A stretch of DNA of 64,000 bases from Thalassolituus oleivorans MIL-1 (lineage in GTDB: Bacteria; Pseudomonadota; Gammaproteobacteria; Pseudomonadales; Oceanobacteraceae). The position numbers and the translations under genes were made by a program. Of the stretch, positions 3,133 to 17,457 are shown piece after piece (position 1 is the first letter of the stretch; each line of letters starts with the position of its first letter). Location of the stretch: NCBI RefSeq assembly GCF_000355675.1, contig NC_020888.1, positions 3,678,001-3,742,000 of the forward strand. The letters are read 5' to 3'. The notes below the pieces were generated by a model. The model was not told where the DNA came from, searched no databases, and saw only the letters and a program-made list of their open reading frames with translations.

Positions 3133-3339
3133 ACCTCGCAGGCGCATATGACGGTCACGCTACCGCTATTAAACATAGCTTATCTACACTCAGTTGCGAG
3201 CATACTTGCGCAGTCGACCTGCAAGACCTCCACTAGCCAGTGTATAGAAGTGGTATGATCAATTTTTGTATCGCCCAAAACGGATCGCGGATGTGATGTC
3301 TTTTATTATCGATTGGTTTTCTTACTTACGGAGCGCGCT

Positions 3340-4065
3340 ATGAGCCTTCGCAAGATCCTTGTTGCCGTGCTTCTCACTATTGCTGGCCTCGGCCTATTGG
3401 CTGCCATTGCAGGGGGCGCGTTTGTGGCTTATTGGATCTGGAATAACGTTACGGCCAACATTCCCTTGTATGACCAAAAAGCCCGCATTGAAATCGCCGA
3501 TGCTTTTCCTGCGACAGTCGATATTCTCGACCCATTGTCGGTAAATATAGACACTGTAATCCCTGCAAATGTCCCGATTAATCAAACCTTGACCATTCCT
3601 TTAGAAGAAACCTTCGACGTTAAGGTTAATTTTAACGGTCAAGTACCCATTAAAATGACGTTGCCCGTACACCAGTCCATTCATATTGATCAAGTCATAC
3701 CTATTGACGGCAAAGTCAGCGTTAAGTTGCTAGGCGCATGGATTAAATTGCCGCTAAAAGGCTCTGTTCCTGTAAAGGCGGACATTCCGGTTAATCTAAG
3801 CATTCCTATCGACCGAAATATTGATCTAGCGTTTAGCGCGCCAGCTCAAGTGGCAATTTCAGACAAAATAAAAGTACGCCTAGATACCAATATCATCGCC
3901 GATATTCCGGTAAAAAAATCCTTATCCATTCCGGTTCTAGAGCCGCTACGCGCTAATGTCACCTTAGATAAAGCAACCGACATCACGATTCGTGAACTGA
4001 ACATCGATGTGCCGCTTGAAGCCATTACCTTTAGCCCAAGTGCTCAGGTTGGAGACAAACCGTGA
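3340..4065 (+). CDS. Membrane-anchored protein of repeated Ile-Pro-rich beta strands (paralogue 1)
   Basis: The 241-residue product starts at ATG 3340, with GGAG 6 bases upstream; an upstream in-frame start at 3313 lacks a comparable site. Residues about 5-33 form one hydrophobic segment (LLTIAGLGLLAAIAGG) that acts as an uncleaved anchor or signal. The rest is almost wholly alternating hydrophobic/polar strands broken by Pro, with recurrent IPV, IPI and VPI triplets, suggesting a long repetitive beta structure outside the membrane. The C-terminal stretch NIDVPLEAITFS recurs in the next gene as LIDIPLENIKYS. The stop overlaps the next start by four bases (GTGA), so the two are translationally coupled. 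I do not recognise a named family or function. Confidence 0.75.
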   Translation: MSLRKILVAVLLTIAGLGLLAAIAGGAFVAYWIWNNVTANIPLYDQKARIEIADAFPATVDILDPLSVNIDTVIPANVPINQTLTIPLEETFDVKVNFNGQVPIKMTLPVHQSIHIDQVIPIDGKVSVKLLGAWIKLPLKGSVPVKADIPVNLSIPIDRNIDLAFSAPAQVAISDKIKVRLDTNIIADIPVKKSLSIPVLEPLRANVTLDKATDITIRELNIDVPLEAITFSPSAQVGDKP

Positions 4066-4799
4066 TCACTTTGGCGCGCATTATTATTGGCGGCTGGATT
4101 CTAGTTGTACTCGCCGTTATCGGTGCAATACTCGGCTTTGTCGTGTATTCCAATGTTGTCATGGGCATTTCACTAAAGCAGCAAGCGAGCTTGATTCGCT
4201 TTGATTCACCGTTGACATTTAATACCGACCTTAACAGTAATATTAATTTTCGCTTGTTAGGCGACATCCCCATCAGTGTGCCATTAAATAATCTACGCAT
4301 TCCACTTCACATTAAAGGGCAATACCAAGCGCAATTAGATATTGACTCCTCTATACCACTGAATTTAACCGCCGATTTCTCTGATACTATTTTAATTGAG
4401 ACCGATCTAGAGGTAGCTGCAGGCACCGAACTAGTAAGTTCTTGGCTGCCCAATTTACCAGTACGCGGAACAATACCTATCCGCTTTGAATTACCCGTCG
4501 CGTTTACTGTACCCGTGAATACAAGTTTGCCACTAAGCTATCATGGACCGATTTCTTTTTATGTTAATCAAACAATAACGCCCAATATTCAGCAAACCAT
4601 CACTACCAGCATGCACATAGACCAAATGATTACTGCGCCCGTCACCAATACGTTTTATGGCTCCATGCATGCACAAGACGCCAGCATTCCGATTACCTTT
4701 GACAATGTTCTCATTGATATTCCGTTAGAAAATATTAAATATTCCTACCCTAAGTTATCCACTGGAGAACTTAATTCCGTTTCGACAACAGAGCCTTAG
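4062..4799 (+). CDS. Membrane-anchored protein of repeated Ile-Pro-rich beta strands (paralogue 2)
   Basis: This 245-residue product starts at GTG 4062 inside the stop region of the preceding gene. Residues about 3-30 form a single hydrophobic anchor, followed by about 210 residues of alternating strands with frequent IPI, IPL and LPV triplets. It matches paralogue 1 in length, layout and C-terminal motif, but the overall sequence has diverged, so this is an old tandem duplication. The pair may act as a heteromer in the periplasm, since two diverged copies were kept side by side with coupled translation. That is inference; no catalytic motif is visible. Confidence 0.75.
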   Translation: MITLARIIIGGWILVVLAVIGAILGFVVYSNVVMGISLKQQASLIRFDSPLTFNTDLNSNINFRLLGDIPISVPLNNLRIPLHIKGQYQAQLDIDSSIPLNLTADFSDTILIETDLEVAAGTELVSSWLPNLPVRGTIPIRFELPVAFTVPVNTSLPLSYHGPISFYVNQTITPNIQQTITTSMHIDQMITAPVTNTFYGSMHAQDASIPITFDNVLIDIPLENIKYSYPKLSTGELNSVSTTEP

Positions 4800-4830: not shown

Positions 4831-5610
4831 TTGGAATTTGAACTATATCGTCGCGGCCCGCACCATCGCTCTGACGATGAATATATTTCGTTTCGCGAAG
4901 TACGTGACCGTTTTGATTTTCGCGGGGTAGAAATTGGCGCTTGGGTTACGCAGAAAGAACAAGAAAAAGCCGCCGTCTATTTTTACGACGCACTGTGTGA
5001 TTTAACTAAAATCCTCGCAGTACCCGACGAAGTTATTTCTCTGCGGGGCACTTTGGTTCTGCAATACGGTAAAGGTGGTCGCCCTGGTGTGGCGGCCCAC
5101 TACGCACCCGACCAACGGGCTTTTGCACTGGCAAAAAACGCAGGGCCGGGCAGCATTGCCCACGAATGGTTTCACGCCTTCGATCATTATATTTGCAATA
5201 AAGCATTTAATGTTAACAAACCGAGATTGTTTGCCTCGACCGCTTGGCTGGCACAATATGCACCGATTGAGCACTCCCTTAACGCTTTGTTATTTAATTG
5301 CTATCGAGCCGTGCTGTTGGATAAATCCGGCGAACAGCCCAGTGAATTATTTTTAAGCTCCGCCGAAATAGATAGAGCTGCTGGTACCGTTTATTACAGC
5401 CTACCAGAAGAAATGTGCGCTCGTGCTTTCGAGGCATTTGTTCAAGATGCCCATATTAAAAATAACTATTTGGTAAAAGGCACTAAACAATCAGAAGAAG
5501 CAAAGCTTGGACTTTACCCTCAAGGTGAACAGAGAGTTTTAATCAATCAAGCTTTTCAAAATTACTTTGCACAGCTTGGACGAGCGTTAATTTTAAATAA
5601 AAGCCAATAA
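4831..5610 (+). CDS. CLCA_X / LPD1-type protein with HExxH-like motif
   Basis: The 259-residue product starts at TTG 4831, with AAGGA 6 bases upstream. The centre (about residues 108-120) reads AHEWFHAFDHY, an HExxH metallopeptidase-like signature. The preceding region (SLRGTLVLQYGKGG, then an ALAKNAGPGSIAHEWFH run) matches what I recall of the CLCA_X family and the LPD1 domain. Whether it binds zinc or cleaves anything is untested. There is no signal peptide. It follows the two Ile-Pro-rich membrane proteins by 31 bases on the same strand and a terminator comes directly after it, so the three form one operon. Confidence 0.7.
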   Translation: MEFELYRRGPHHRSDDEYISFREVRDRFDFRGVEIGAWVTQKEQEKAAVYFYDALCDLTKILAVPDEVISLRGTLVLQYGKGGRPGVAAHYAPDQRAFALAKNAGPGSIAHEWFHAFDHYICNKAFNVNKPRLFASTAWLAQYAPIEHSLNALLFNCYRAVLLDKSGEQPSELFLSSAEIDRAAGTVYYSLPEEMCARAFEAFVQDAHIKNNYLVKGTKQSEEAKLGLYPQGEQRVLINQAFQNYFAQLGRALILNKSQ

Positions 5611-5636
5611 AAAACCCCTCAAATGAGGGGTTTTTT
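5609..5636. terminator. Bidirectional terminator between convergent units
   Basis: AAAAAACCCCTC pairs with GAGGGGTTTTTT across an AAAT loop. It directly follows the stop of the CLCA_X gene and lies 15 bases past the end of the convergent giant surface-protein gene, so it can serve both. Confidence 0.92.
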
Positions 5637-5650
5637 ATGCTGATATGCAA

Positions 5651-8600
5651 TCAGAAATGGTGTCTGAATCCTAGTGTCCAAACACGGGCGTCCTCAGCAT
5701 ACGAATTTACTTGAGCTTCTAAGTAGTCCGTTTTATTTAAACGACAGTCGATACCCGCTCCGACCATTAACCGAAGGTCATCATGCGATTTTAAATTTAA
5801 ACCGCCCTGACTATCGTTAAATAAGCGGCCCATGCCAAGCTGAAGTTGCGGCGTCCAGCGGCCCATGCGCAAGGCGTCTGGTCGATACTGGGCCATCGCT
5901 GCCAGCGCTTGGTAGTTAATTCGACCATTACCAATACTGGCGTTCCCCATATCGACATAACGTAATTGCGCCGCCCATTCACGGTTGAAGTGATAGGCCG
6001 TAGACAACTGCCAGCTACTATCGCTGTCATCACTCAAGGTTAAATTATTATTTAACTTTGGATCCAACTGAGAAACGCCAACGCCACCTTCAACGCTCCA
6101 CTCACCCGCTTGCGCTGACATCGAAGTTGCAAGCAATGCAGCCATTACCGTTGCCGAAAAACGGCGTTGACGCAGCGCCACCAGCAAGAGTGCAAGGCCG
6201 AACACTAGGCCTAGGCTCATGCTACCGCCACCAGTTGATGTCTCAACGTCTACGCCGGTATTAATCGAAGGATCAATACTGTCGTCTACGCCATCACCGT
6301 CCGCATCGGTAATGCCGGCCCCCGGTGCTTCAGGTGCTGCATCCACCGGTAAGGCAATCTCAGGATCTATGTTGTCTGGTATGCCATCGCCATCAGCGTC
6401 AGCATCCAAGTGATCAACAAAGCCATCACCATCAAGGTCAGGCATTTCGCGATCATCACGTACACCGTTGCCATCGAGATCCTCGCCGTTAAGAACGCCA
6501 TTCACGTTGGCATCAACACCATCATCAATGCCATCAGCATCAGCATCTTCGCCGGTGAAGAAGGCTTGCTGTGGATTTTCATCCGCATCGCTAATGCCGT
6601 CACCATCATCATCGTCATCAAGATGGTTAGGTATGCCGTCGCCATCGAAGTCGGCACGCGAACCAAACGCACCAATAGCGTTATCGACCACATCCATAAT
6701 ACCGTCACGATCTACGTCGGTAGTGCTATCCAACACACCATCCAGATCGCCATCTAGATCGCTTGGCAGATTCGAGTTACTGAAATCGGTATCGACACCA
6801 TTACTTCTTACATCTAAGTTGTCAGGCAAGGTATCTCCGTCACTATCCGGTAACTGAATAACGTCCGTCAGGATATCCACGCCATCATCCAGCAAGGCGT
6901 CTCCATCTTGGTCACCCAATCCAGCTTCCGCGACATCAAACAAACCATCGTTATCGGCATCTAGATCGATCATATTCAGCAAGCCATCACCGTCTTGATC
7001 GGTACTGGCGAATGCCACCAGCCACTCGGCTAGCTCATCCATTGCATCGTTAACGCCATCGAGGTTGTCATCAGTAAGACCGGTATCAACAATGCCGTCG
7101 TTGCCAATGTCTGCGTCGATTGCATCAATAATGCCGTCGTTATCGGTATCGGTTAAATCCAAATTCAATTCCACAAGATCCGAAATACCGTCGTTATCCG
7201 AATCAGTGTCATCACGATCAGCAATACCGTCACCATCAGTGTCGACTGTGTCGTCTCCCTCTAGCATGTTCGGCAAACCATCACCGTCATCGTCTTGGCC
7301 TTCAAGAATGATATCCACCAGCGCTTGTACTTCGCTGAGCTCATTCACATCGGCCAAGTTCGAACGGGCAATCGCGTTATTGATGAGATCCAATACAGTA
7401 GCCGTGACACTTGTGACGCCAGCAGTATCGTATTCAGTGATGGTTGCAGGCGTAGATCCGCTAGCATCCGCTTGGCTGGAGATAGTATTCAAAGCGACCT
7501 GAGCCAACGAAATAACCGTTGCCGTATCCGCAGCTACTGGGGTCTCAACCGCCAGTAAGTCATCGGTATAACTAACGGTTAGGCCAATCACATTACCCAC
7601 GTCAGACGCGGTAATTAGATAGGTATCTTGATCGCTGCCAGCGACTTCACCACCCGACGTCCACTGATATTGAATCGTCGCGTTGGCTAAGCCATTGTTG
7701 TCCGCGATGTCTGCAGTCAGTGTTTCGCCTTCTGCAGCAACGCCACTAATCGAGGCAACACCCACATCATTAACGATGGCAACGGTAGCCACGGCCGATG
7801 CTTGGTTACCGTTGTCTGCATCGTCGGTGACAACATCCGCTGCCACACTCACGGTGGTATCAGAACCCGATGCCGTCGGCATAATAGTAGCCGTATAGCC
7901 AGTGCCACCACCCAGCAATTGGGTGACAACACCGTTGGTAACGGTAATGTCAGCCGACGTCAGAGTTGAGACATTTTCGCTAAAGGTAACAGTGACATCG
8001 AAGGCCGTAATCGCTGAACTCGGCACGCCAGTAAGGGTGGTCGTCGCACCCGTTGTATCCGCGCTCGTGGTTAGCTCAACCGCTGCCGTTGAGGTATTTC
8101 CTGCTGCGTCGCTAGCAGCACCCGCAGCCATATTGACGGTTACGTCACCGTCGGCCGTTGGTGTTATCAGCACACTATAGGTATTACCAAGTGCAGCCAA
8201 GTTGCCCGCGGTGCCGTTTGTCACAACAAAGTCGGTCAGCTCTACACCCGTGACCGTTTCGCTAAAGGTTGCGGTCACGATGAATGGTTCGTTAACCAAG
8301 GTTGCTGCAGTCGTTAGGGCAACTGCTGGGGCTGTTGCATCATAAGTAACCACTAACTGACCGGCTGCATTATTGCTATTACCAGCAACATCCACCGCAA
8401 CTGCATTAACCACATCAAGCGTTACGGTACCGTCCGTAGTCGGCGTTACCAACACGGTATAGCTGGTGCCAGAACCGCTAAAATCGCTCAAGGTGGCGTT
8501 GCTAGCGCTGATATCGGCGACAACAAAATCCGTCACGTTTTCACTAAAGGTGATGGTTGCGGTAAACGCTGCATTGACCAACGTAGCTGGCGCTGAGAGC

Positions 8601-11600
8601 AATACAGTTGGAGCGATAGCATCGTAAGTAACCGCTAACTGTGCTGCGGCTGCGCTGTTGTTACCCGCAGCATCTTGAGCCGCATTAGCAGCAACATCTA
8701 GCGTCACCGCACCATCCGTGGTTGGCGTTACCAGCACAGAATAGGTATCACCCGAGCCACTAAAATCAGCCAGCGTGGCATTCGACACGGCAATATCACC
8801 GACAACAAAGTTATTCACGCTTTCACTGAAGGTAATAGTCGCGGTAAACGCAGCATTAATATAGCCAGATGCCCCACTAATAACTGCTGTTGGCGCTGTT
8901 GCATCGTAGGTAGCAGTCAGCTGAGTCGCGGCACTATTGTCGTTACCGGCAACATCTTGAGCTACCGCGGCGGCGACATCTAATGTCACCGCGCCGTCAG
9001 CATTCGGTGTTACCAATACGGTGTATAACGCTCCTGAGCCAGCAAAATCACTCAGAAGAGCGTTGCTAACTCCTAAATCGCTAACATCAAAACCACTGAC
9101 GCTTTCGCTGAAGGCAATCGTGGCGGTGAAGGCCGTGTTAATTGCACCAGAAGCCCCCGAAATCGCTACAGTTGGAGCAGAACCATCATAGGTCGCAAGC
9201 AATTGAGTGGCGGCACTATTGGCGTTTCCTGCTGCGTCTAGTGCAGCATCTGCAGACACGTCGAGAGTCACAACACCATCCGCAGTTGGTGTTACCAACA
9301 CACTGTAACTCGCGCCAGAACCACTGAAATCACTCAAGGTGGCATTGGTTACTTGGACATCGCTAAGATCAAAACCGCTGACACTTTCACTAAAGATCAT
9401 GTTCGCTGTAAATGGCGCATTAATATCGCCAGATGCACCATCAAGGGTAAGTGTAGGAATAGTGGCATCGTAGGTAACCGCCAGCTGAGCGGCTGCCGTG
9501 TTGCCATTACCCGCGCTATCACTTGCGGTAGAAGCAGCCACATCAAGTGTTACAGCACCATCAGCATTCGGTGTTACCAGCACAGTGTAAGCAGCGCCAG
9601 AACCGGCAAAGTCACTAAGAAGTGCATTGCTGATACCGACATCGCTGACATCAAAGCCACTCACGCTTTCGCTGAAGGTCAGGGTTGCAGTAAAGGGAGT
9701 ATTAATAGATCCCGACGCACCGCCAATAACAACCGTTGGCGCTGAACCATCATAGGTTGCCGTCAGCTGAGCGGCTGCTGTATTACCATTGCCGGCGCCA
9801 TCGGTAGCAACGGCAGCAGCAACATCCACAGTAACTGGACCATCGATATTCGGGGTGACCAACACAGTATAAGTAGAACCAGATCCAGCAAAATCACTGA
9901 GGCTGGCATTGACGGCAATGATGTCACTGAGATCAAAACCGGTGATGCTTTCACTAAAGGTGACCGTTGCCGTAAAGGCGGCATTGATATCACCGGAAGC
10001 CCCACTAATCACTGCAGTTGGAGCAGTCGCATCATACGTTAACTGCAACTGAGGGCCGGCACTATTGCTATTGCCTGCGGCGTCTACGGCGACCGTATCA
10101 GCGACTTCTAACACCACAATGCCTTCAGCATTCGGTGTGACCAGTACGGTATAAACAGCACCAGAGCCACTGAAATCACTCAGCGTAGCATTTGGCGAAT
10201 AAATATCGCCAACATCAAATCCCGTTACGCTTTCGCTAAAGGTAATGGTCGCGGTAAAGGCTGCGTTGATATTGCCTGATGCACCGGTAATCGCGACGGT
10301 AGGTTGCACACCATCCACCAGCACACCGGTGGTATTAGCCACACCGTTCAGGGCCATCACTATGGCATTGCCCGCAACGTCGGTAATGGCACCACTGTTC
10401 AAGCTTAACGAATCAATACTGATGCCATCGGTATCTTCGTCATTATTCTGCACGGTATAACTAAACGTTAAGGCATCGCTGCCAGTACCCGACAGATAAA
10501 CAGCACTCACATTACTGCTACCGATCGTTAGATCTAACGCTGGCGTACCGCTTGCCGTATCAACCGTTAATACTTCACTTGCAGTCAGCGTGAAGCTCAA
10601 CGTTTCGCCTGTCATATAGGTATCATCCGCCGGAGCGGTAACCTGAGTAACCGTTGGCGGAATCGCATCCAGCTGAATTTGGAAAGCGCTTAATGTCAAC
10701 GCACTGCTGGCGTTACCGTTGGCATCCGTGACGGTAACAGTACAGTCACTGTAGGTGCCATCGACCAATGGTGTGCTGTTATCTGCTTGAGTCAAACTAA
10801 AGGTTAAGTTACCCGCAGCTACTGCGCCTTCGCTGGCACTGCCACAAGAGCCGCCAACCGCTAACGTACCCGCCTGACTGATATTAATCGTGACATCAGG
10901 AGTTGGATCGTTCGTTGGGCTGGTCACTGCCGTGACTTCCGAAAGGCTAGGGGCCAAGGTATCAACCGTGATAGTAAAAGTCTTGAGCTGCGAAAGGTCA
11001 TCACCGCCATTCGTCACGCCGCCACTATCACGCACTTGCGCCTGAATGGTGGCAACGCCTTCAACGTTCGCTGTTGGGGTGTATGTCAGTGTGCCATTGC
11101 TCGCAATACTGACAGAAGAAACGACACCGCTTGGATCAGACACTTCGCTGACCACATAACCCAAAACGGTTTGCGTATTTTCATCCGCACCGCCGCCAGC
11201 ACTCGACATCGACGCAAAACCAGCCACCGTTTGAGCGCTTCCGCCCACACCGTTGAACGTCTGATTAGCTAGCGAGGAGATCGTAGGTTCGTCGTTAACC
11301 GGGGTAATCGTCACGTTCACCGTGCGGCTATCCGTATTGCTGCCATCGCTCACAATAACAGTGAAAGTATCACTTCCATTTAAGTTCGTCGTAGGCGTAT
11401 AAGTGACGGAGCTTGGCGTACCGTTAGTCGTAGGAGTGGAAGCTGTTCCGGAAGCCTGTGGCGTGCCTTTTGTACCGCCAGAGGCGGACCAAGTTAACGT
11501 CTGGCCCGAGTCTGAATCAGACGTTGCAAAGTTAGAAGTACTTACCGCATTGCTGCCAGAGTCTTCTAGTACGGTAATGGCAACGGCTGAGTTAGCCATC

Positions 11601-12412
11601 GACGGAACGGCACCGGTATTCACAAAAAAACTATCCGACGTCGAATTATTGTTCGCATCGGTTGCAGTAACCGTGATGTTAGCGCCACCTTGGCCAACCA
11701 CATTGGCAATCGTCAGATAAAATAAGTTACCTGGTGAAGTACCGGGGTCGCGAGTAACACTAATATCTGCATTACGAATTGCACTTTGATTGTCAGATGA
11801 GACGGTGACATTAATAACGTCTAAATAATTTGCGCCAGTAATCGGGGGATCTTCAATTTCAAAATCCAGCGTAATATTACCTCCCACGGCTAATGAAATA
11901 TCCGTAAGAAATACGCCTGGGTTATCCTTAGGGAAGACCGGCGGTAAGTTATCGCCGTCTGTCCATGTGTATCCTAGAATCGTACAGATACTGTCACTGA
12001 TAATTGGATCGCCCGTCGTATAATAAGCAGGCGCTCCGCCTGCAGTCACACAGCTCAAGAAGCTCTTACGACCGGTCAGTCCACTAATATCACCCGAGGT
12101 ATCACCAACCACATTCTCGCCACCCGCAAGAAAGTTGTTTTCACTCAAAAAGGCAAGAGCCTCAGAGTCAACTTGTCGAGACGCTGGCTTGACATAGTGA
12201 CTATTCCCAAAAGCCCCAAATGCTTGGCTTTTTTGTCCTGTGTCTGCTTTCTCATACTGAGAAATCGCCGCTCGTGTATTTAGCCCATTACGGGAAATAC
12301 TTGCGGGGCGTATCGACGCATTGGCGAGTGGTGCCGCCATCGCCATTATTGGCAGTACCGCTTTTAACGCATTCAGCGTTTTGGGGCGATGGGTTGGGAG
12401 TTTCTTATCCAT
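5651..12412 (-). CDS. Giant Ig-like repeat surface protein with Ca-binding repeats, internal GlyGly-CTERM-like motif and C-terminal beta-barrel
   Basis: The 2253-residue product starts at ATG 12412, with AAGGA 6 bases upstream; a longer in-frame start would overlap the preceding gene. Residues 1-32 are a signal peptide ending in ANA. Cadherin-like and other Ig-like modules follow (about 33-700, with PVNDEPT linkers). Residues 704-1549 are nine exact 94-residue repeats resembling Big_12 Ig-like domains. An Asp-rich thrombospondin-3-like calcium-binding region (DxDGDGI units) spans about 1700-2055. At 2061-2084 a GGGS, a hydrophobic stretch and RQRR form a GlyGly-CTERM-like tripartite sorting signal. 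A second signal-peptide-like stretch ends in AQA (about 2102), then an OmpA-like barrel of about 150 residues ends in Phe. It is the last gene of a tight minus-strand operon. Adhesion or cell-surface structure is the likely role. Confidence 0.9.
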   Translation of the reverse strand: MDKKLPTHRPKTLNALKAVLPIMAMAAPLANASIRPASISRNGLNTRAAISQYEKADTGQKSQAFGAFGNSHYVKPASRQVDSEALAFLSENNFLAGGENVVGDTSGDISGLTGRKSFLSCVTAGGAPAYYTTGDPIISDSICTILGYTWTDGDNLPPVFPKDNPGVFLTDISLAVGGNITLDFEIEDPPITGANYLDVINVTVSSDNQSAIRNADISVTRDPGTSPGNLFYLTIANVVGQGGANITVTATDANNNSTSDSFFVNTGAVPSMANSAVAITVLEDSGSNAVSTSNFATSDSDSGQTLTWSASGGTKGTPQASGTASTPTTNGTPSSVTYTPTTNLNGSDTFTVIVSDGSNTDSRTVNVTITPVNDEPTISSLANQTFNGVGGSAQTVAGFASMSSAGGGADENTQTVLGYVVSEVSDPSGVVSSVSIASNGTLTYTPTANVEGVATIQAQVRDSGGVTNGGDDLSQLKTFTITVDTLAPSLSEVTAVTSPTNDPTPDVTINISQAGTLAVGGSCGSASEGAVAAGNLTFSLTQADNSTPLVDGTYSDCTVTVTDANGNASSALTLSAFQIQLDAIPPTVTQVTAPADDTYMTGETLSFTLTASEVLTVDTASGTPALDLTIGSSNVSAVYLSGTGSDALTFSYTVQNNDEDTDGISIDSLSLNSGAITDVAGNAIVMALNGVANTTGVLVDGVQPTVAITGASGNINAAFTATITFSESVTGFDVGDIYSPNATLSDFSGSGAVYTVLVTPNAEGIVVLEVADTVAVDAAGNSNSAGPQLQLTYDATAPTAVISGASGDINAAFTATVTFSESITGFDLSDIIAVNASLSDFAGSGSTYTVLVTPNIDGPVTVDVAAAVATDGAGNGNTAAAQLTATYDGSAPTVVIGGASGSINTPFTATLTFSESVSGFDVSDVGISNALLSDFAGSGAAYTVLVTPNADGAVTLDVAASTASDSAGNGNTAAAQLAVTYDATIPTLTLDGASGDINAPFTANMIFSESVSGFDLSDVQVTNATLSDFSGSGASYSVLVTPTADGVVTLDVSADAALDAAGNANSAATQLLATYDGSAPTVAISGASGAINTAFTATIAFSESVSGFDVSDLGVSNALLSDFAGSGALYTVLVTPNADGAVTLDVAAAVAQDVAGNDNSAATQLTATYDATAPTAVISGASGYINAAFTATITFSESVNNFVVGDIAVSNATLADFSGSGDTYSVLVTPTTDGAVTLDVAANAAQDAAGNNSAAAAQLAVTYDAIAPTVLLSAPATLVNAAFTATITFSENVTDFVVADISASNATLSDFSGSGTSYTVLVTPTTDGTVTLDVVNAVAVDVAGNSNNAAGQLVVTYDATAPAVALTTAATLVNEPFIVTATFSETVTGVELTDFVVTNGTAGNLAALGNTYSVLITPTADGDVTVNMAAGAASDAAGNTSTAAVELTTSADTTGATTTLTGVPSSAITAFDVTVTFSENVSTLTSADITVTNGVVTQLLGGGTGYTATIMPTASGSDTTVSVAADVVTDDADNGNQASAVATVAIVNDVGVASISGVAAEGETLTADIADNNGLANATIQYQWTSGGEVAGSDQDTYLITASDVGNVIGLTVSYTDDLLAVETPVAADTATVISLAQVALNTISSQADASGSTPATITEYDTAGVTSVTATVLDLINNAIARSNLADVNELSEVQALVDIILEGQDDDGDGLPNMLEGDDTVDTDGDGIADRDDTDSDNDGISDLVELNLDLTDTDNDGIIDAIDADIGNDGIVDTGLTDDNLDGVNDAMDELAEWLVAFASTDQDGDGLLNMIDLDADNDGLFDVAEAGLGDQDGDALLDDGVDILTDVIQLPDSDGDTLPDNLDVRSNGVDTDFSNSNLPSDLDGDLDGVLDSTTDVDRDGIMDVVDNAIGAFGSRADFDGDGIPNHLDDDDDGDGISDADENPQQAFFTGEDADADGIDDGVDANVNGVLNGEDLDGNGVRDDREMPDLDGDGFVDHLDADADGDGIPDNIDPEIALPVDAAPEAPGAGITDADGDGVDDSIDPSINTGVDVETSTGGGSMSLGLVFGLALLLVALRQRRFSATVMAALLATSMSAQAGEWSVEGGVGVSQLDPKLNNNLTLSDDSDSSWQLSTAYHFNREWAAQLRYVDMGNASIGNGRINYQALAAMAQYRPDALRMGRWTPQLQLGMGRLFNDSQGGLNLKSHDDLRLMVGAGIDCRLNKTDYLEAQVNSYAEDARVWTLGFRHHF
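7766..10303 (-). repeat. Nine tandem 282-bp coding repeats (94-residue Ig-like units)
   Basis: Unit starts fall exactly 282 bases apart: 10303, 10021, 9739 and on to 8329 and 8047, with the array ending at 7766 and no insertions or deletions. Each unit runs from PTxxIxGASGxIN through FSESVxGF, LSDFxGSG and LVTPxxDG to DxAGN. Units 1-6 are closest to each other, 7 and 8 differ in the first loop, and 9 is the most diverged. This suits array growth by unequal recombination. Confidence 0.95.
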
Positions 12413-12422
12413 GGAAAATCCT

Positions 12423-13592
12423 TCAGGTGGTGAGTCCTGGGTGGCAAAAATGATTCCGCATTCTCGGATGACTGGGTTCAATCACTTCCGGAAAGCAGGT
12501 GTTATTTAAAATGGCAATGTCATAAATTTGATCAACATTACCTTGGAAACTAATCTGACCAACCACCTCGTTATTTTCGAGATTAATCAGCCAAATGCCG
12601 GAGCACGTTTCCCCTTCTTTTTCGTCAATAAGGGCAGGTGCAGATACATCGCTGTTACGACGACGCGATAAACCAACAAACATTAAACTGCCATAAATAT
12701 CGATACCGCGAGTAAAGCCGGGTAATTCAGCAATGACTTCCGTTTCGCCAGTATCAGGGTGATAGCAATTCACCTGACCAACACCTGAATGACAGAAATA
12801 GACTTTACCGTTATGCCAACGTGGCGAGTGCGGCATGGACAAACCACTGACAACAATTTCATTGCGTTTAACATCAATTAACGTGCCTGTACGTTTATCG
12901 CTGTCACGCCACTGTTTGGCATTCTCAAATTGAGAAAAGGTCGTCACATAAGCAGGCTCGCCATCACGCAGAGTCATGCCATTTAAATGGCAGCGATCTT
13001 CCGGAGTCAGCTTGTCAATAAAAGGCGGCTTCCACTGAGGGACAAAACTATATGCAGGGTCGACCGTGGACAAACAAGAAAAACTGGAATTAACCACCCA
13101 CAATCCAGCATTTCCCCATTCAATATCGTGAATGTTAATCATGCCGGTGTAATGTGAGGATCGAGTGATAAAACACGCATCCACACGTGCATCTACAGGC
13201 TGTAACTTACGTTGATATTCTTCGTCTTTAGCACGAATCTCAATGTCTTCCTGGTTTGCCTCATCATCGTTAAACACACGAGGGGCAGTGACATCTTTAT
13301 GAATATCCGGAAGAGGATGTTTAATTTGAGTCAGTAATCTATCTTCACGCTGAAAATGAATAATCTGAGTAAATGTACCAAGAATCAGCCCCTGATCCGT
13401 CACCGTCAGGCCCATCGGGCGTGGAAATTCTTTAAAATTAATTTCGAGCGATTCGCCATCAGTACGCACCAGCATCAAGCGTCCAGCCTGATACGACGTG
13501 AACGCCAAAGATATATTCAGATGTTTAAAAACTGCCGGTAAATTATCCGAATAAGTATAAGAAAAATCGGCGAGTTCAACGTTATCAGTCAT
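12423..13592 (-). CDS. TIGR03032 family protein
   Basis: The 389-residue product matches the TIGR03032 family (related to DUF4915). The signature blocks are visible: an LNGM segment followed by a DG and YVTTFSQ, a WR...GTLIDV block, the GLSMPHSPRWH motif, then ELPGFTRGI and FVGLSRRR. The fold is probably a beta-propeller-like repeat. The family has no settled function; members occur next to TPR, sulfotransferase or hydroxylase genes and large surface proteins. No signal peptide is seen, so it is probably cytoplasmic and may help make or modify the giant protein encoded 10 bases downstream. It starts 3 bases after the subtilase stop, so co-translation is likely. Confidence 0.88.
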   Translation of the reverse strand: MTDNVELADFSYTYSDNLPAVFKHLNISLAFTSYQAGRLMLVRTDGESLEINFKEFPRPMGLTVTDQGLILGTFTQIIHFQREDRLLTQIKHPLPDIHKDVTAPRVFNDDEANQEDIEIRAKDEEYQRKLQPVDARVDACFITRSSHYTGMINIHDIEWGNAGLWVVNSSFSCLSTVDPAYSFVPQWKPPFIDKLTPEDRCHLNGMTLRDGEPAYVTTFSQFENAKQWRDSDKRTGTLIDVKRNEIVVSGLSMPHSPRWHNGKVYFCHSGVGQVNCYHPDTGETEVIAELPGFTRGIDIYGSLMFVGLSRRRNSDVSAPALIDEKEGETCSGIWLINLENNEVVGQISFQGNVDQIYDIAILNNTCFPEVIEPSHPRMRNHFCHPGLTT

Positions 13593-13595
13593 GGC

Positions 13596-14888
13596 TTACA
13601 AATCCCGCAAGTGAATAGGGGTAGAAGAAGGAATGACTTGAGACCCAAACTGGGCAATTTGTAACTGCGAAACGAGCTGATCGAGTGTAAGCGAGGGGGT
13701 AGCAGAAAGAAGTAACGCGAAATAACCTGAAGCAACAGCAGCCGACAATGACGTTCCTGAGAAATGCCCATACCCTCCCCCTGCCTTAATAGCTGGGCTG
13801 GGCTTTCCATAAATGTAGGCATCCACGGAGCTTCCATAATTACTGAACCTCGTCCTTTTTCCATGTTCATCCGCTGCACCAACGACAACGGCGTCCAGCA
13901 GTGACGCCTCACTCGCGTCAGCTGTTAATTCCAACCCTGCATTGCCGGCTGAAAATACCACAGCAATACCTTTTCCAGCGCGGCCATTTTGCGCCAAGTC
14001 AGAAACGATATCAGCTAGTGGGTCTAATAGCCATTGAGAAGCCCAACTGGCGTTAATGATGTCAGCGTTTGACAGTTTAGCTAGGTAGAAACTGAGTAAA
14101 GTACGACTCGTCCATGTATCGGAGTTCCGTATTGCAATGAGTCCAGCCTCAGGGGCGATACCATCAATTCCTCGCTCATCGTGGGCTGCGAAAATAGTAC
14201 CAACCACCTTAGTACCATGAATGTCGAGCTCGCTCTTTGGGCTAACATCCTGAACCTTTTGTTCGGCGTCGTAAGAAAACACAACATCGGTGAAACGTAA
14301 CTCTTCATGGCTTAGCGCAAAGCCGTCATCAATCACTGCGACTTTCACCCCACGCCCCTTGGTTGTTTGCCAAAGGGTGGGAATATCTAATTGCGAAAAA
14401 TAGGGGGCGGGATTTAGCGCCAGCTGTTGATCTTCAGTATTTGTACGACCAGTGTCAGTACGGATAGTCAGCTGTAATATATCCGGCTGCACCAAAGAAA
14501 TATTAGAAGTGCTACTCAACACCTTCATCACGGCTGAAAGCTGATCACGGGTATTTAAAGTCACCAAGTAATAATTCGACTCAGGCATTAAATACAGCTC
14601 ATTCACGGCAGCGATACGCGAATCGAGTGCCTGCAAAGAGAGCTTCGTCAATCCTGATGCACGGACAATAAGACGATTACTCAACGACACCTGCAGTGCT
14701 TTGCCTGAGACGCTATAAACATCACTCGTCTGATTAACACCATTAGACTCGTTAGCAATGGGCGTTAAACAGTAGGTTTTATTAAAATTTCGAAAAGGAA
14801 TCTCGCAGGCAAAAGCAGTGCTCACCCACAGTAAACATAAAACTCCAAACAGCTTTCTAAAAAAAACAGACATCCAAGCTCGAACCAT
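13596..14888 (-). CDS. Secreted subtilisin-like (S8) serine peptidase
   Basis: The 430-residue product has a signal peptide ending near residue 27 (TAFA before Cys28), a propeptide-like segment of about 140 residues, then an S8 catalytic domain. The catalytic triad is Asp187 (VAVIDDG), His224 (DIHGTKVVG) and Ser380 (SGTSLSAAV), with oxyanion Asn316 (FSAGNAG). The position of Cys28 does not make a classical lipobox. A second start at 14873 would give a more typical signal peptide. It sits between the collar proteins and the TIGR03032 gene in the same operon, so it may mature the giant surface protein or other secreted partners. That role is inference; the peptidase class is secure. Confidence 0.92.
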   Translation of the reverse strand: MVRAWMSVFFRKLFGVLCLLWVSTAFACEIPFRNFNKTYCLTPIANESNGVNQTSDVYSVSGKALQVSLSNRLIVRASGLTKLSLQALDSRIAAVNELYLMPESNYYLVTLNTRDQLSAVMKVLSSTSNISLVQPDILQLTIRTDTGRTNTEDQQLALNPAPYFSQLDIPTLWQTTKGRGVKVAVIDDGFALSHEELRFTDVVFSYDAEQKVQDVSPKSELDIHGTKVVGTIFAAHDERGIDGIAPEAGLIAIRNSDTWTSRTLLSFYLAKLSNADIINASWASQWLLDPLADIVSDLAQNGRAGKGIAVVFSAGNAGLELTADASEASLLDAVVVGAADEHGKRTRFSNYGSSVDAYIYGKPSPAIKAGGGYGHFSGTSLSAAVASGYFALLLSATPSLTLDQLVSQLQIAQFGSQVIPSSTPIHLRDL

Positions 14889-14931
14889 AAATTATTTTCA
14901 TAAAAAGGTGGCCATCCATGGCCAAGCTGCA

Positions 14932-15468
14932 CTAACCGCGGCTAGGGTACAAACCCACTAACGCGATGCAATAGTTCATGCCAATCATCGGCTGGCGATT
15001 TTCGTGTGACTGACCGCCCCCTGTCTCAGACAAGGCCTCGGGTGCCATGGTGGTATTCACAGTCCCGGTATTATCTAAATACAGGATATTGTCATTAACA
15101 GGCTTATCAATGCCCATCATTTTATCTGGGCCAGGCGTTGCAGAGTTGCTGATTGATTGCGAACCATAAACGATATGTTTGTGGGCCGGAATCTGAGCCT
15201 CAGTTAAGGTAACGGATTCGACGCCGGTTTTCTCGCCTAAACGACGCGCCGTCAGACCCGGCCCCCGACCTGGGTGCATAGCGGCTCGCCCTGCTAAGTT
15301 GGGCAATCCAAAAGTAGTTCGGCCATCACCGCCGTACGTGGTGCCTAAAATAGAAAACAACGCCGTATTTTGTGAGACAGGCAACAACTGTCCATCGCAC
15401 TTCGCCCAGCCACTAGGGGCAAAATTACAGCCCATTATTCTAATTTCTCCGATAAATGGTTCTGACAT
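14932..15468 (-). CDS. Phage tail collar domain protein, MdpB-like (copy 3)
   Basis: The 178-residue product opens with MSEPFIGEIRIMGCNFAPSG and has the collar-domain core: GWAKCDGQLLP, then YGGDGRTTFGLPNL, an IPAHKH histidine pair and a C-terminal IALVGLYPSR. This is the microcystin-dependent protein (MdpB) type of tail collar protein, usually chromosomal and not tied to a prophage. It is the last of three tandem copies, 12 bases after copy 2 and 43 bases before the subtilase. No signal peptide is present, as in the other two copies, so export would need a dedicated route. Its molecular role is not established. Confidence 0.9.
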   Translation of the reverse strand: MSEPFIGEIRIMGCNFAPSGWAKCDGQLLPVSQNTALFSILGTTYGGDGRTTFGLPNLAGRAAMHPGRGPGLTARRLGEKTGVESVTLTEAQIPAHKHIVYGSQSISNSATPGPDKMMGIDKPVNDNILYLDNTGTVNTTMAPEALSETGGGQSHENRQPMIGMNYCIALVGLYPSRG

Positions 15469-15480
15469 AATTCTGACTCC

Positions 15481-16005
15481 TTAATGACGTGACGGATAAA
15501 TACCGAACAGCGCAATGATGTAATTGATACAAAGCGCAGGCATGAGATTAGTATGGCTTCGAGAACCACCCGCAGTAGCGACAACATCACTACTTAATCC
15601 CACAACGTTCGATAGTGTTGATGTATAAGATTCATCGCCGTCGGTATGGCTACCTAATACATCATTGGCAGGATTAGAAGATGAAACTTCAGCCGTAGAC
15701 GCCATGAAACCATGACTATGCGGAGGGATTTCATTCACAGTTAAGGTTACATTTTCTTCACCGTAGCGAGCGCCAAGGCGACGCAAAGAAAGACCTGGGC
15801 CTTGCCCCTGATGCACCGGAAGACGACCAAGCATATCGGGCAATCCAAACGTGGTACGACCATCACCACCATAAACAGTGCCCAACAAAGAAAACAATGC
15901 ATCATTCTGGCTAACCGCCATCAACTGACCATCACAAAATGCCCAGCCACGCGGAGCGAAATTTCCAGCGAACATACGAATTTCGCCAACAAATGGTTCT
16001 GACAT
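15481..16005 (-). CDS. Phage tail collar domain protein, MdpB-like (copy 2)
   Basis: The 174-residue product has the same layout as its neighbours: MSEPFVGEIRMFAGNFAPRG, GWAFCDGQLM, YGGDGRTTFGLPDM, then PPHSHGF and a C-terminal IALFGIYPSR. The N-terminal half is conserved in all three copies, while the segment after the histidine motif (about residues 105-150) is nearly unrelated between them. That fits a conserved collar fold with a variable exposed part. The start is ATG 16005, with an AGGAG-like sequence upstream. It sits in the middle of the tandem array. Confidence 0.9.
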   Translation of the reverse strand: MSEPFVGEIRMFAGNFAPRGWAFCDGQLMAVSQNDALFSLLGTVYGGDGRTTFGLPDMLGRLPVHQGQGPGLSLRRLGARYGEENVTLTVNEIPPHSHGFMASTAEVSSSNPANDVLGSHTDGDESYTSTLSNVVGLSSDVVATAGGSRSHTNLMPALCINYIIALFGIYPSRH

Positions 16006-16040
16006 AATAGACTCCTTAGTTAGATAAATTTTGCGTTGCT

Positions 16041-16562
16041 TCAGCTACGCGAAGGGAAAAGCCCTTGCAGAGCAATACAAAAATTAACAGCAATAGATGG
16101 CTGATTATTATCATGAGCCATCCCACTACCCGCCGTAGAAACAGACGCCGGAGCCAAGGCAACCAAAGATGATGGCGCTACATACATATTTGTTGGCACA
16201 TTTTGGGTTTTATCAACAGCCGTCGCGAGCATAGAGCCAGTAAACTGCTTAGTCGTAGCGTTTGCGGTGGTTGCCTTTACCGCGTGCGAGTGAGCCGGCA
16301 TTTCAGCGGCTGTTAACGTGACATATTCAATACCTTGCTTTGCGCCTTGTAATAACTGCTCATCGTCACCAGCGGGGGTGCGGCTACGCATATCCGGCAA
16401 CGCAAATGATGTGCGACCATCACCGCCATAAGTAGTGCCTAGCAACGAATACAAAGATTGGTTTTGATTGATTGGCAGAATCTGCCCATCACACTGTGCC
16501 CAACCGCGCGGCGCCCAACCAAATCCAAACATACGGATTTCGCTTAAAAAGGGTTCAGCCAT
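16041..16562 (-). CDS. Phage tail collar domain protein, MdpB-like (copy 1)
   Basis: The 173-residue product starts MAEPFLSEIRMFGFGWAPRG, followed by GWAQCDGQILP, YGGDGRTSFALPDM, an MPAHSHA motif and a C-terminal IALQGLFPSR. AGGAG lies upstream of ATG 16562. It is the promoter-proximal gene of the visible minus-strand run and is 35 bases from copy 2. It diverges from the GNAT gene at 16649, so a promoter for the six-gene operon should lie in the 86 bases at 16563-16648. That gap includes a short GTGGGGTTCCCCAC palindrome at about 16591-16604. Confidence 0.9.
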   Translation of the reverse strand: MAEPFLSEIRMFGFGWAPRGWAQCDGQILPINQNQSLYSLLGTTYGGDGRTSFALPDMRSRTPAGDDEQLLQGAKQGIEYVTLTAAEMPAHSHAVKATTANATTKQFTGSMLATAVDKTQNVPTNMYVAPSSLVALAPASVSTAGSGMAHDNNQPSIAVNFCIALQGLFPSRS

Positions 16563-16648
16563 ATCTATCTCCTTTTGTTTACTTTAGGTGTGGGGTTCCC
16601 CACAATTTGCCCTAGATGCCTGACACTATCCTTTTTAGAGAAAAGACA

Positions 16649-17143
16649 ATGACCGACAAAAATTGCTGGACAAACCGAGTTAAATTACGTCGGTTTACCG
16701 AGCAAGACCTCACCTTCATGGAACAACTGTATGCCGCTGGCCGGGTTACTGAATTAGCAATGACACCCTTTTCCGACGAGCAAAAATCTTTATTTATAAA
16801 ACAGCAATTCACCGCTCAGCTTACGCATTACACGACCCACTATAATTCTGAAAAATTTGAAATTATTGAAGTCGATGGACAAATGGCTGGGCGTTTGTTT
16901 ATCGATATTTGGGACAACGAAATACGAATAGTCGATATTGCCTTGGCGCCGCACATTCAAAACCAAGGGCTTGGAGGCTATTTGTTGAATAAGGTCATAG
17001 AACAAGGGAGAACGTTGAAAAAACCCGTAACGATTCACGTAGAGCAAAATAATCCAGCAAAACGATTGTATGAAAGACTGGGCTTTAAAGAAAAAAGTCG
17101 TACGAACGAGGTCTATATTTTGATGGAGCGTACCTGCTGTTAA
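16649..17143 (+). CDS. GNAT family N-acetyltransferase
   Basis: The 164-residue product starts at ATG 16649; an in-frame ATG at 16616 would add 11 residues. The GNAT core is visible: a central VDIALAPHIQNQGLGGYLL block carrying the acetyl-CoA pyrophosphate-binding Q-x-x-G-x-G loop, then HVEQNNPAKRLYERLGF typical of motif B. The substrate cannot be told from sequence. It is inverted relative to the collar and DUF6916 genes and sits between them. GNAT genes often accompany MdpB-type collar genes, so it may belong to the cluster functionally. That link is from memory of other genomes and is inference here. Confidence 0.88.
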   Translation: MTDKNCWTNRVKLRRFTEQDLTFMEQLYAAGRVTELAMTPFSDEQKSLFIKQQFTAQLTHYTTHYNSEKFEIIEVDGQMAGRLFIDIWDNEIRIVDIALAPHIQNQGLGGYLLNKVIEQGRTLKKPVTIHVEQNNPAKRLYERLGFKEKSRTNEVYILMERTCC

Positions 17144-17172
17144 TATTTTCATTCGCGTCCCTGCGTTTTAAC

Positions 17173-17457
17173 TCACCGTTTTCGGCTGATAACGGTTTGA
17201 TATTCAGTCGGACCGTGAGCAGTAATAAATATTTCTTCCTGCCCAAACGAATCATGAACTGCGCGGTAAGATCCTTGCGGAATCCGGAAGCTTTCATCGC
17301 CATTAAATAGCACCGCAAAACCTTCCCAGTCATCACCGTCGATAGGCGATTTTTCAACGCTAACCACACTCAGCTGAACAGAGTTTTCAGCGCTATCAAA
17401 TACAGCCACCTTGCTACCCAGCAAAGCGCTCATACTGTCGAAATTCAATCTACTCAT
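17173..17457 (-). CDS. DUF6916 family protein
   Basis: The 94-residue product starts at ATG 17457, preceded by GAGAG. It begins with an F-x-x-x-LLGSKVAV stretch, then has an acidic middle and FAVLFNGDESFRIPQGSYRAVH followed by an EEIFITAHGP segment. This pattern (a FxxLF line, PQGxYxxxH, then a terminal strand) fits the DUF6916 domain, a small beta protein found beside MdpB-type collar genes. It has no signal peptide. The inverted GNAT gene parts it from the three collar genes, but on the same strand it still heads the cluster. Function unknown. Confidence 0.7.
   Translation of the reverse strand: MSRLNFDSMSALLGSKVAVFDSAENSVQLSVVSVEKSPIDGDDWEGFAVLFNGDESFRIPQGSYRAVHDSFGQEEIFITAHGPTEYQTVISRKR

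Follow-up and report, generated by a model that had tools for sequence, protein, structure and literature searches.

A conserved operon of six minus-strand genes in Thalassolituus oleivorans MIL-1 encodes three collar proteins, an S8 subtilase, a TIGR03032/DUF4915 protein, and a giant Ig-repeat protein that ends in an OmpA-type barrel. It lies in a stretch of 64,000 nucleotides of contig NC_020888.1 (positions 3,678,001 to 3,742,000), hereafter the window. There is, in our judgment, about an even chance that this operon serves to produce and mature a single giant surface protein, which would be cut into an adhesin and an outer-membrane barrel.

The six genes are separated by gaps of 35, 12, 43, 3, and 10 bases. 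A sequence-only reading of the same DNA had described this arrangement, and both coordinates and family assignments (Pfam and NCBIfam: Collar PF07484 in three genes, Peptidase_S8, TIGR03032/DUF4915, and the Ig-repeat giant) agree with it. Its gene inventory stands as far as it went, with a DUF6916 gene just upstream, but it overlooked a divergent GNAT acetyltransferase gene that is conserved with the set.

The operon is a conserved unit, the core of which is composed of the subtilase, TIGR03032, and the giant. The complete set (DUF6916, GNAT, three collars, S8, TIGR03032, and giant) is also found in congeners (L032–L034) and in Rheinheimera (L055), where the GNAT and DUF6916 genes are oriented as the rest of the set. 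Within the stretches fetched, three genomes of one further family (L035–L037) and Vibrio albus (L057) harbor only the subtilase, TIGR03032, and the giant. In genome G006 (L039 and L111), collars, GNAT, TIGR03032, subtilase, and giant are present in a looser order. Genomes G126 and G658 keep the subtilase, TIGR03032, and giant and have no collars genome-wide, while a genome-wide search of G254 places its three collar genes at a separate locus. Because collars are absent from some loci and genomes and located elsewhere in others, the subtilase, TIGR03032, and giant are taken as the core. One genome of the same genus, G104, carries neither TIGR03032 nor the giant. In a tree of 37 TIGR03032 rows, the ten subtilase-bearing loci form one clade with support of 100/100. 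A subtilase is found near 10/10 cluster-type TIGR03032 loci versus 0/29 others, a count that is partly circular in that loci were grouped by their neighbors, such that the clade and the new loci described below are the real tests.

An independent test employed a TIGR03032 profile (A1) built from operon loci against 196 genomes from the Rheinheimera family and 398 from the phylum. It took 18 places scoring at least 420 bits, one of which (L122) is the L056 record already present in A1, leaving 17 new loci; places at or below 240 bits and G1203 (292.5 bits) are excluded, and L052–L054, which correspond to L033, L034, and L032, are not counted as new. The subtilase is the next gene upstream in 15 of the 17 (about 600 bases off in L138), and the giant is next downstream in 16, with L133 stopping at a contig end. 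The collar triad accompanies 13 loci, GNAT 12, and DUF6916 12, while AspH-like, sulfotransferase-like, and methyltransferase-PhyH genes accompany 6, 6, and 4, respectively; flank lengths vary among these loci, which may account for some of the absences. The known N-terminal stretch is matched by ten of the 16 giants, and the other six (L131 and L135–L139) are large GSTND-rich open reading frames without a match. A profile of the N-terminal stretch (A4) finds matches in 8 of 293 genomes, seven of which supplied its rows and the eighth of which (G199) is a close congener, so that it demonstrates absence elsewhere and not independent co-occurrence. The sequence-only reading had proposed a dedicated surface system whose genes should recur together in other genomes. 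They do so far beyond the source genome, the 17 new loci included, and this co-occurrence supports a dedicated surface-protein system. The operon finding is real, conserved, and of interest, and the general idea of that reading is partly right.

The giants have a common architecture. The nine operon giants that were read first consist of a signal peptide (all signal-peptide calls, in the window and in relatives, were made by eye), a conserved N-terminal stretch, variable repeats, and a common tail. The tail comprises, in order, a Gly/Ser motif, a hydrophobic helix, a basic cluster, a second hydrophobic stretch with a small-x-small end, and a barrel. In the window's giant, the Gly/Ser motif, helix, and basic residues read STGGGSMSLGLVFGLALLLVALRQRR, and 169 residues lie downstream, i.e., the segment is not C-terminal. 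Preceding the tail is a D-rich region whose 14 DxDxDG-type motifs probably bind calcium.

The barrel is recognized by PF13505 or PF01389 over cut-off in 15/15 giants tested (5/5 and 10/10), nine of which are operon giants. The model of the window's tail (mean pLDDT 68) has helices at 73–88 and 94–102 followed by eight strands between 111 and 259, with the barrel blocks mostly at pLDDT 80–93. Foldseek places OmpA first, with OmpA, Ail, NspA, and OmpX scoring highest. The OmpA C-terminal peptidoglycan-binding domain (PF00691) has no match in the window's giant, which ends with the barrel, and follows the barrel in 4 of 10 giant tails tested, including that of a second giant in the same genome (L112). 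This second giant (L112:3567-13424, G000:C1:1355566-1365423) is 3285 residues long and has an internal tag-like segment, a second signal segment, a barrel, and PF00691. The translocator barrel of type Va autotransporters has 12 strands; an autotransporter was considered for the window's giant and rejected on the basis of the eight strands in the model.

The sequence-only reading took the giant to be a single, barrel-anchored surface protein. The barrel itself is borne out as OmpA-type, while the internal sorting-signal-like segment and the second signal segment argue for a cut precursor, and the picture of the giant given there is probably wrong. In its favor, the barrel is real and OmpA-like, and barrel-anchored giants exist, as exemplified by autotransporters and intimins; the giant could thus remain one chain, with the C-terminal barrel as its outer-membrane anchor and the repeats displayed. 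However, barrels of eight strands are not known to export a passenger, and in 21 of 22 barrel-ended giants, two hydrophobic segments with an intervening basic cluster lie ahead of the barrel. The pattern describing this junction, composed after inspection of the sequences, misses only L113, has one match elsewhere in the same proteins and six in 1100 shuffled tails, and also fits 4/4 new giants. In addition, the model leaves about eight residues between the second helix and the first strand, albeit with low-confidence helices. Both hydrophobic segments would be folded as a hairpin into the inner membrane, with the barrel in the outer membrane, and eight residues are too few to cross the periplasm; therefore, at least one cut is required if both helices insert. 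An uncut, barrel-anchored chain is accordingly regarded as unlikely, also in light of the barrel-less giants described next.

Twenty complete giants are available in the operon position. Seven of them (L111, L123, L126, L128, L130, L132, and L139) end at the sorting signal and have no barrel, while 13 (the window, L032–L037, L055, L057, L124, L125, L135, and L137) continue to a second signal segment and barrel. The N-terminal stretch is matched in 17 of the 20 (all but L135, L137, and L139) and in six of the seven that end at the signal. The occurrence of barrel-less and barrel-bearing giants in one operon position is the strongest evidence for reading the middle segment as a sorting signal. 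A second such pair, recognized by eye, is formed by a 220-residue protein in L109 that ends in a sorting tag (TIGR03382, 19.5 bits, cut-off 15.85) and whose N-terminus resembles a 2037-residue giant in L110 with an internal tag and barrel. The module is not confined to the operon: a profile of it (A6), run on 16 genomes, has full-length matches in frames of 1037–4034 residues in 11 genomes, while frames of 185–317 residues match its later part only. Most likely, the precursor undergoes two cuts, which would release the adhesin in anchored form and the outer-membrane protein as a separate product.

The GlyGly_CTERM model TIGR03501 was run on 23 of the 26 internal segments (all except those of L034, of the second L117 giant, and of the first L120 giant) and exceeds its cut-off of 15.5 in seven of them (4/8, 0/10, 0/1, and 3/4), as well as in two of the seven terminal ones. 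The corresponding protease, rhombosortase, is encoded in the same genome as the window (135.7 bits, cut-off 84), as is a type II secretion system (T2SS) secretin (536.9 bits, cut-off 351.35). Rhombosortase is over cut-off in 10/10 operon genomes tested, in 11/11 genomes with the full module (six of which contributed rows to the module profile) versus 2/5 without it, and in 15/18 overall. In G219, a rhombosortase gene (133.7 bits; L116:8845-9445) has a probable TTG start 7 bases beyond the stop codon of a giant that has both the internal tag-like segment and the barrel.

These genomic associations bear on the suggestion that the internal signal is a functionless remnant, left when a surface-protein gene fused with an outer-membrane protein gene downstream of it. 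The giants with and without barrel do indicate that the barrel is gained or lost, and gene fusion is suggested for a Myxococcus case in the available portion of PMC11980579. However, the motif is retained in giants that are otherwise divergent, and rhombosortase is present in all 11 full-module genomes, once as the adjoining gene, making a relic distinctly improbable.

The window's TIGR03032 protein is 80% identical to that of Thalassolituus maritimus and, over 236 residues, 99% identical to that of an Oceanobacter metagenome-assembled genome, in keeping with a marine gammaproteobacterial host of Thalassolituus/Oceanobacter type. Its AlphaFold2 model is a beta-propeller (mean pLDDT 89.8), for which Foldseek returns general propellers only, with TM scores by query of at most 0.49 among the 50 matches listed; therefore, no activity can be read from the fold. 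Neither TIGR03032 nor DUF4915 is named among the 5.39 million open-licence papers covered.

Clues to its role are instead found in its surroundings. The survey covers 37 loci over cut-off from order and class samples; the first sample used 20 of 23 over-cut-off genomes (besides the window, G045 and G200 were left out for short contigs), and the second used 16 of 17, all but the window's own genome. A large GSTND-rich open reading frame lies within 3 kb in 24/37 loci versus 2/116 control anchors, and at a looser threshold in 27/37 versus 11/116, the thresholds having been fixed after the loci were viewed and many loci being from related genera. The export routes of these large neighbors, assigned by eye, differ: L041–L043 are autotransporter-like and barrel-ended, L044, L045, L048, and L051 have tagged C-termini, and L040, L050, and L064 employ type I secretion.

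TIGR03032 is also fused to other domains. In L048, it forms a single 1030-residue chain with AspH and Sulfotransfer_3 (L048:9376-12468); this gene adjoins two large proteins with tag-like ends. In L066, it is fused to GNAT, and in L038, L071, and L074 to TPR and a GT9-like part under the Pfam cut-off. In L063 (3141-7788), a TPR-GT41 glycosyltransferase gene (192.3 bits) is flanked by two TIGR03032 genes. Leave-one-out searches find GNAT near 10/39 TIGR03032 loci and GT9/41-like parts, fused or near, at 9/39, versus 0/20 controls each. The shared factor is thus a large exported protein together with protein-tailoring enzymes, and TIGR03032 is therefore read as having a cytoplasmic role in modification prior to export: it may modify large secreted proteins before they leave the cytoplasm. 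The modifying partner envisaged in the sequence-only reading gains support from these fusions and neighbors.

Alternatively, TIGR03032 could be a housekeeping enzyme that neighbors large secreted proteins incidentally, and even the loose threshold indeed leaves 10/37 loci with no large neighbor within 3 kb. The enrichment of large neighbors over controls, the fusions to tailoring domains, and the retention of the unit in the new loci all speak against it, and an incidental association is strongly doubted.

The subtilase harbors an Asp/His/Ser triad (D187, H224, and S380) and an oxyanion N316 that are invariant in 9/9. The mycosin model TIGR03921 scores 92.1 bits, under its cut-off of 278.75. 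Because the catalytic residues are invariant and the subtilase-bearing loci form one TIGR03032 clade, a role as maturation factor is plausible.

The collar proteins match phage tail fibers in the PDB, T4 gp12 (1ocy) among them. The core occurs without an adjacent collar in L124, L132, and L134, and collars are found in other company as well. At the separate locus of G254 (L107:1673-16781, G254:C2), the three collars are accompanied by DUF6916, GNAT, AspH, an Asn synthase-like protein, an ABC transporter, and two sulfotransferases, one over and one under the Pfam cut-off. This locus resembles a peptide-natural-product cluster. In G214, a single collar adjoins a sulfotransferase and a giant, and in L109 (9743-11069) and L110 (3303-10104), collars with signal peptides adjoin tagged proteins, one short and one the 2037-residue barrel giant. 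Collars thus co-locate elsewhere with the same enzymes and giants and therefore travel with both; from their distribution, they appear to be optional accessories. A phage remnant was also considered for the window and set aside, as collars are optional and phage structural genes were not recognized by eye among the open reading frames of positions 1–24300.

On the basis of the match to phage tail fibers, as well as the L109 and L110 collars that have signal peptides and adjoin sorting-signal proteins, the collars could be the displayed tips of a contact device for which the giant is the stalk, forming a tail-fiber-like apparatus. The three collars of the window have no visible signal peptide, however, and the core does without an adjacent collar in three loci and without any collar in the genomes G126 and G658, which renders such an apparatus quite unlikely.

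The genes present, their order and conservation, and the giant's anatomy are shown by the sequences, and the chemistry and cuts of the following scheme are inferred. In the proposed scheme of two cuts, the giant would enter the Sec path via its N-terminal signal peptide. Prior to export, the presumably cytoplasmic TIGR03032 propeller, probably together with GNAT, would modify the repeat chain or ready it for modification, and in relatives, the AspH hydroxylase, methyltransferase-PhyH, and sulfotransferase-like enzymes would join in. At the inner membrane, the mid-chain Gly/Ser-helix-Arg segment would be recognized as a sorting signal, which rhombosortase would cut, at Gly-Gly by analogy to VesB, and the adhesin part would, as VesB, be lipid-tagged and placed on the surface by type II secretion. 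The shared basic cluster would serve both as the end of the sorting helix and as the start of the second signal peptide, which signal peptidase would cut at Ala-x-Ala, so that the OmpA-type barrel could proceed to the outer membrane. A single gene would thereby provide as many adhesins as outer-membrane partners, comparable to the production of TraA and TraB from two overlapping genes in Myxococcus. The subtilase would probably trim or activate the adhesin, and the collars would act as accessories.

Several observations weigh against this scheme. The window's own internal segment has no TIGR03501 match, its best being MYXO-CTERM at 16.7, below the cut-off of 20, and 16/23 internal segments fall short of the GlyGly cut-off. 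The two helices preceding the barrel in the tail model are at pLDDT of only about 50. Among the new loci, the subtilase is missing in L133 (4.9 kb upstream covered) and L139 and is displaced in L138. A large GSTND-rich neighbor within 3 kb is absent from 13/37 TIGR03032 loci at the strict threshold (L046 and L067 are at contig ends, and the giant of L039 is farther away), and the looser threshold admits the 11 controls given above. With respect to the enzymes, four of the ten GNAT-bearing loci are congeners, AspH (2/39) and sulfotransferase (2/39) are weak taken alone versus controls of 0/20 and 1/20, respectively, the sulfotransferase-like proteins of L055 are under Pfam cut-offs or without match, and GNAT is the window's only representative of the modifying enzymes. 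The lack of visible signal peptides on the window's collars counts here as well.

The closest known counterpart is MXAN_5598 of Myxococcus xanthus. According to the available portion of PMC11980579, its large adhesin region is followed by an internal MYXO-CTERM and then by an outer-membrane barrel with OmpA domains; the authors compare the protein with TraA and TraB combined and suggest that its N-terminal portion undergoes processing and anchoring. The order of adhesin region, internal tag, and barrel in one chain is thus the same. In contrast, MXAN_5598 is described there as a single atypical protein with a myxosortase-type tag that adjoins cell division genes, whereas the form reported here is recurrent and GlyGly-like, goes with rhombosortase and a conserved gammaproteobacterial operon, and in the window lacks the OmpA domain that four of ten other giants have. 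The design is therefore, as far as that text goes, already known as a single atypical Myxococcus case, and what is new is that gammaproteobacteria use it regularly, with a GlyGly-like signal, and that it is linked to rhombosortase and the operon. Beyond PMC11980579, no paper was recognized as describing the design in the open-licence literature searched, mostly in the form of listings.

TraA and TraB similarly pair a sorting-tagged surface protein with a partner bearing an OmpA-like domain (PMC3325183, in part). They differ in being encoded by two genes, traA and traB, which overlap by four bases, and in having other adhesin domains; lipid exchange is not part of the present proposal. VesB of Vibrio cholerae undergoes rhombosortase cleavage, lipid-tagging, and T2SS surface delivery, according to the accessible part of PMC6219818. 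The tripartite Gly-helix-Arg signal and the presence of rhombosortase and T2SS in the genome are shared features (PMC6219818, PMC3237569, and PMC13393428, each in part), but the signal is C-terminal in VesB and mid-chain in the giant. In the portions available of the GlyGly-CTERM and rhombosortase papers PMC3237569 and PMC13393428, the word "internal" does not occur. HMW1C-type N-glycosyltransferases (NGT) and BAHT enzymes glycosylate adhesins in the cytoplasm and, like TIGR03032 on the reading given here, are dedicated cytoplasmic enzymes encoded with a large exported adhesin (PMC8151025, in part). Among the operon proteins, by contrast, Pfam and NCBIfam find no glycosyltransferase, and GT41/GT9-like partners occur only at other TIGR03032 loci. 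Finally, the short tail fiber T4 gp12 shares the PF07484 collar domain, but no phage structural genes were recognized around the collars in the part of the window inspected.

The features of the operon are collected in the table below. Between collar C and the subtilase, the intergenic gap contains a GC-rich hairpin, so a single, even transcript is not to be assumed. The hairpin is present in the window and in L032, L033, and L034 (4/4 inspected; L033 and L034 are near-identical there); after it come five Ts in the window and in L032, versus TCTTT in L033 and L034. In the scan that gave the 14-pair stem after the giant, promoter-like and terminator-like sites are no more numerous than in shuffles. 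Past the end of the operon, positions 3313–4799 hold two adjoining plus-strand genes for beta-rich-looking proteins, the first without a Pfam or NCBIfam match, and the pair is retained beside the operon in L032.

Features of the operon and of the giant, in window positions
Feature	Position	Strand	Evidence or remark
DUF6916 gene, 94 aa	17173..17457	-	PF21880 55.3 bits, cut-off 27; kept with operon set
GNAT acetyltransferase gene, divergent, between DUF6916 and first collar gene	16616..17143	+	PF00583 47.6 bits, cut-off 20.7
Collar (MdpB-type) protein A, signal peptide not visible	16041..16562	-	PF07484 96.9 bits, cut-off 24
Collar protein B, signal peptide not visible	15481..16005	-	PF07484 100.3 bits
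Collar protein C, signal peptide not visible	14932..15468	-	PF07484 94.9 bits
GC-rich hairpin followed by Ts, gap between collar C and subtilase, possible attenuator	14909..14924	-
S8 subtilase, signal peptide by eye	13596..14888	-	PF00082 121.9 bits, cut-off 21.8
TIGR03032/DUF4915 protein, signal peptide not visible, predicted beta-propeller	12423..13592	-	382.9 bits, cut-off 251.5
Giant precursor, 2253 aa	5651..12412	-
Giant: signal peptide (by eye) and conserved N-terminal stretch	11933..12412	-	alignment A4
Giant: Ig-like repeats (Big_9, Big_12), approximate limits	7304..11611	-	Pfam
Giant: D-rich region, 14 DxDxDG-type motifs	6239..7303	-
Giant: internal sorting-signal-like segment (Gly/Ser motif, helix, basic cluster), residues 2059-2084	6161..6238	-
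Giant: second hydrophobic, signal-peptide-like segment, Ala-x-Ala end, residues 2085-2102	6107..6160	-
Giant: 8-stranded OmpA-type barrel, residues 2103-2253	5654..6106	-	PF13505 42.6 bits, cut-off 28.7
Terminator-like stem, 14 pairs, directly after the giant's stop	5607..5638	-	consensus match only

A broader proposal, which we put forward tentatively and hold to be somewhat doubtful as a whole, is that many gammaproteobacterial giants are two-in-one precursors, in which a rhombosortase signal and a signal peptide stand back to back around a shared basic loop and release an adhesin and an OmpA-type partner, and that TIGR03032 marks cytoplasmic propellers of a new class, enzymes or adaptors, by which giants of this kind are tailored before export by any route. 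If true, cells would routinely use mid-chain sorting signals to produce an adhesin along with its outer-membrane partner, and TIGR03032/DUF4915 would have its first testable role. The barrel-bearing and barrel-less giants that occupy the same operon position constitute a natural experiment.

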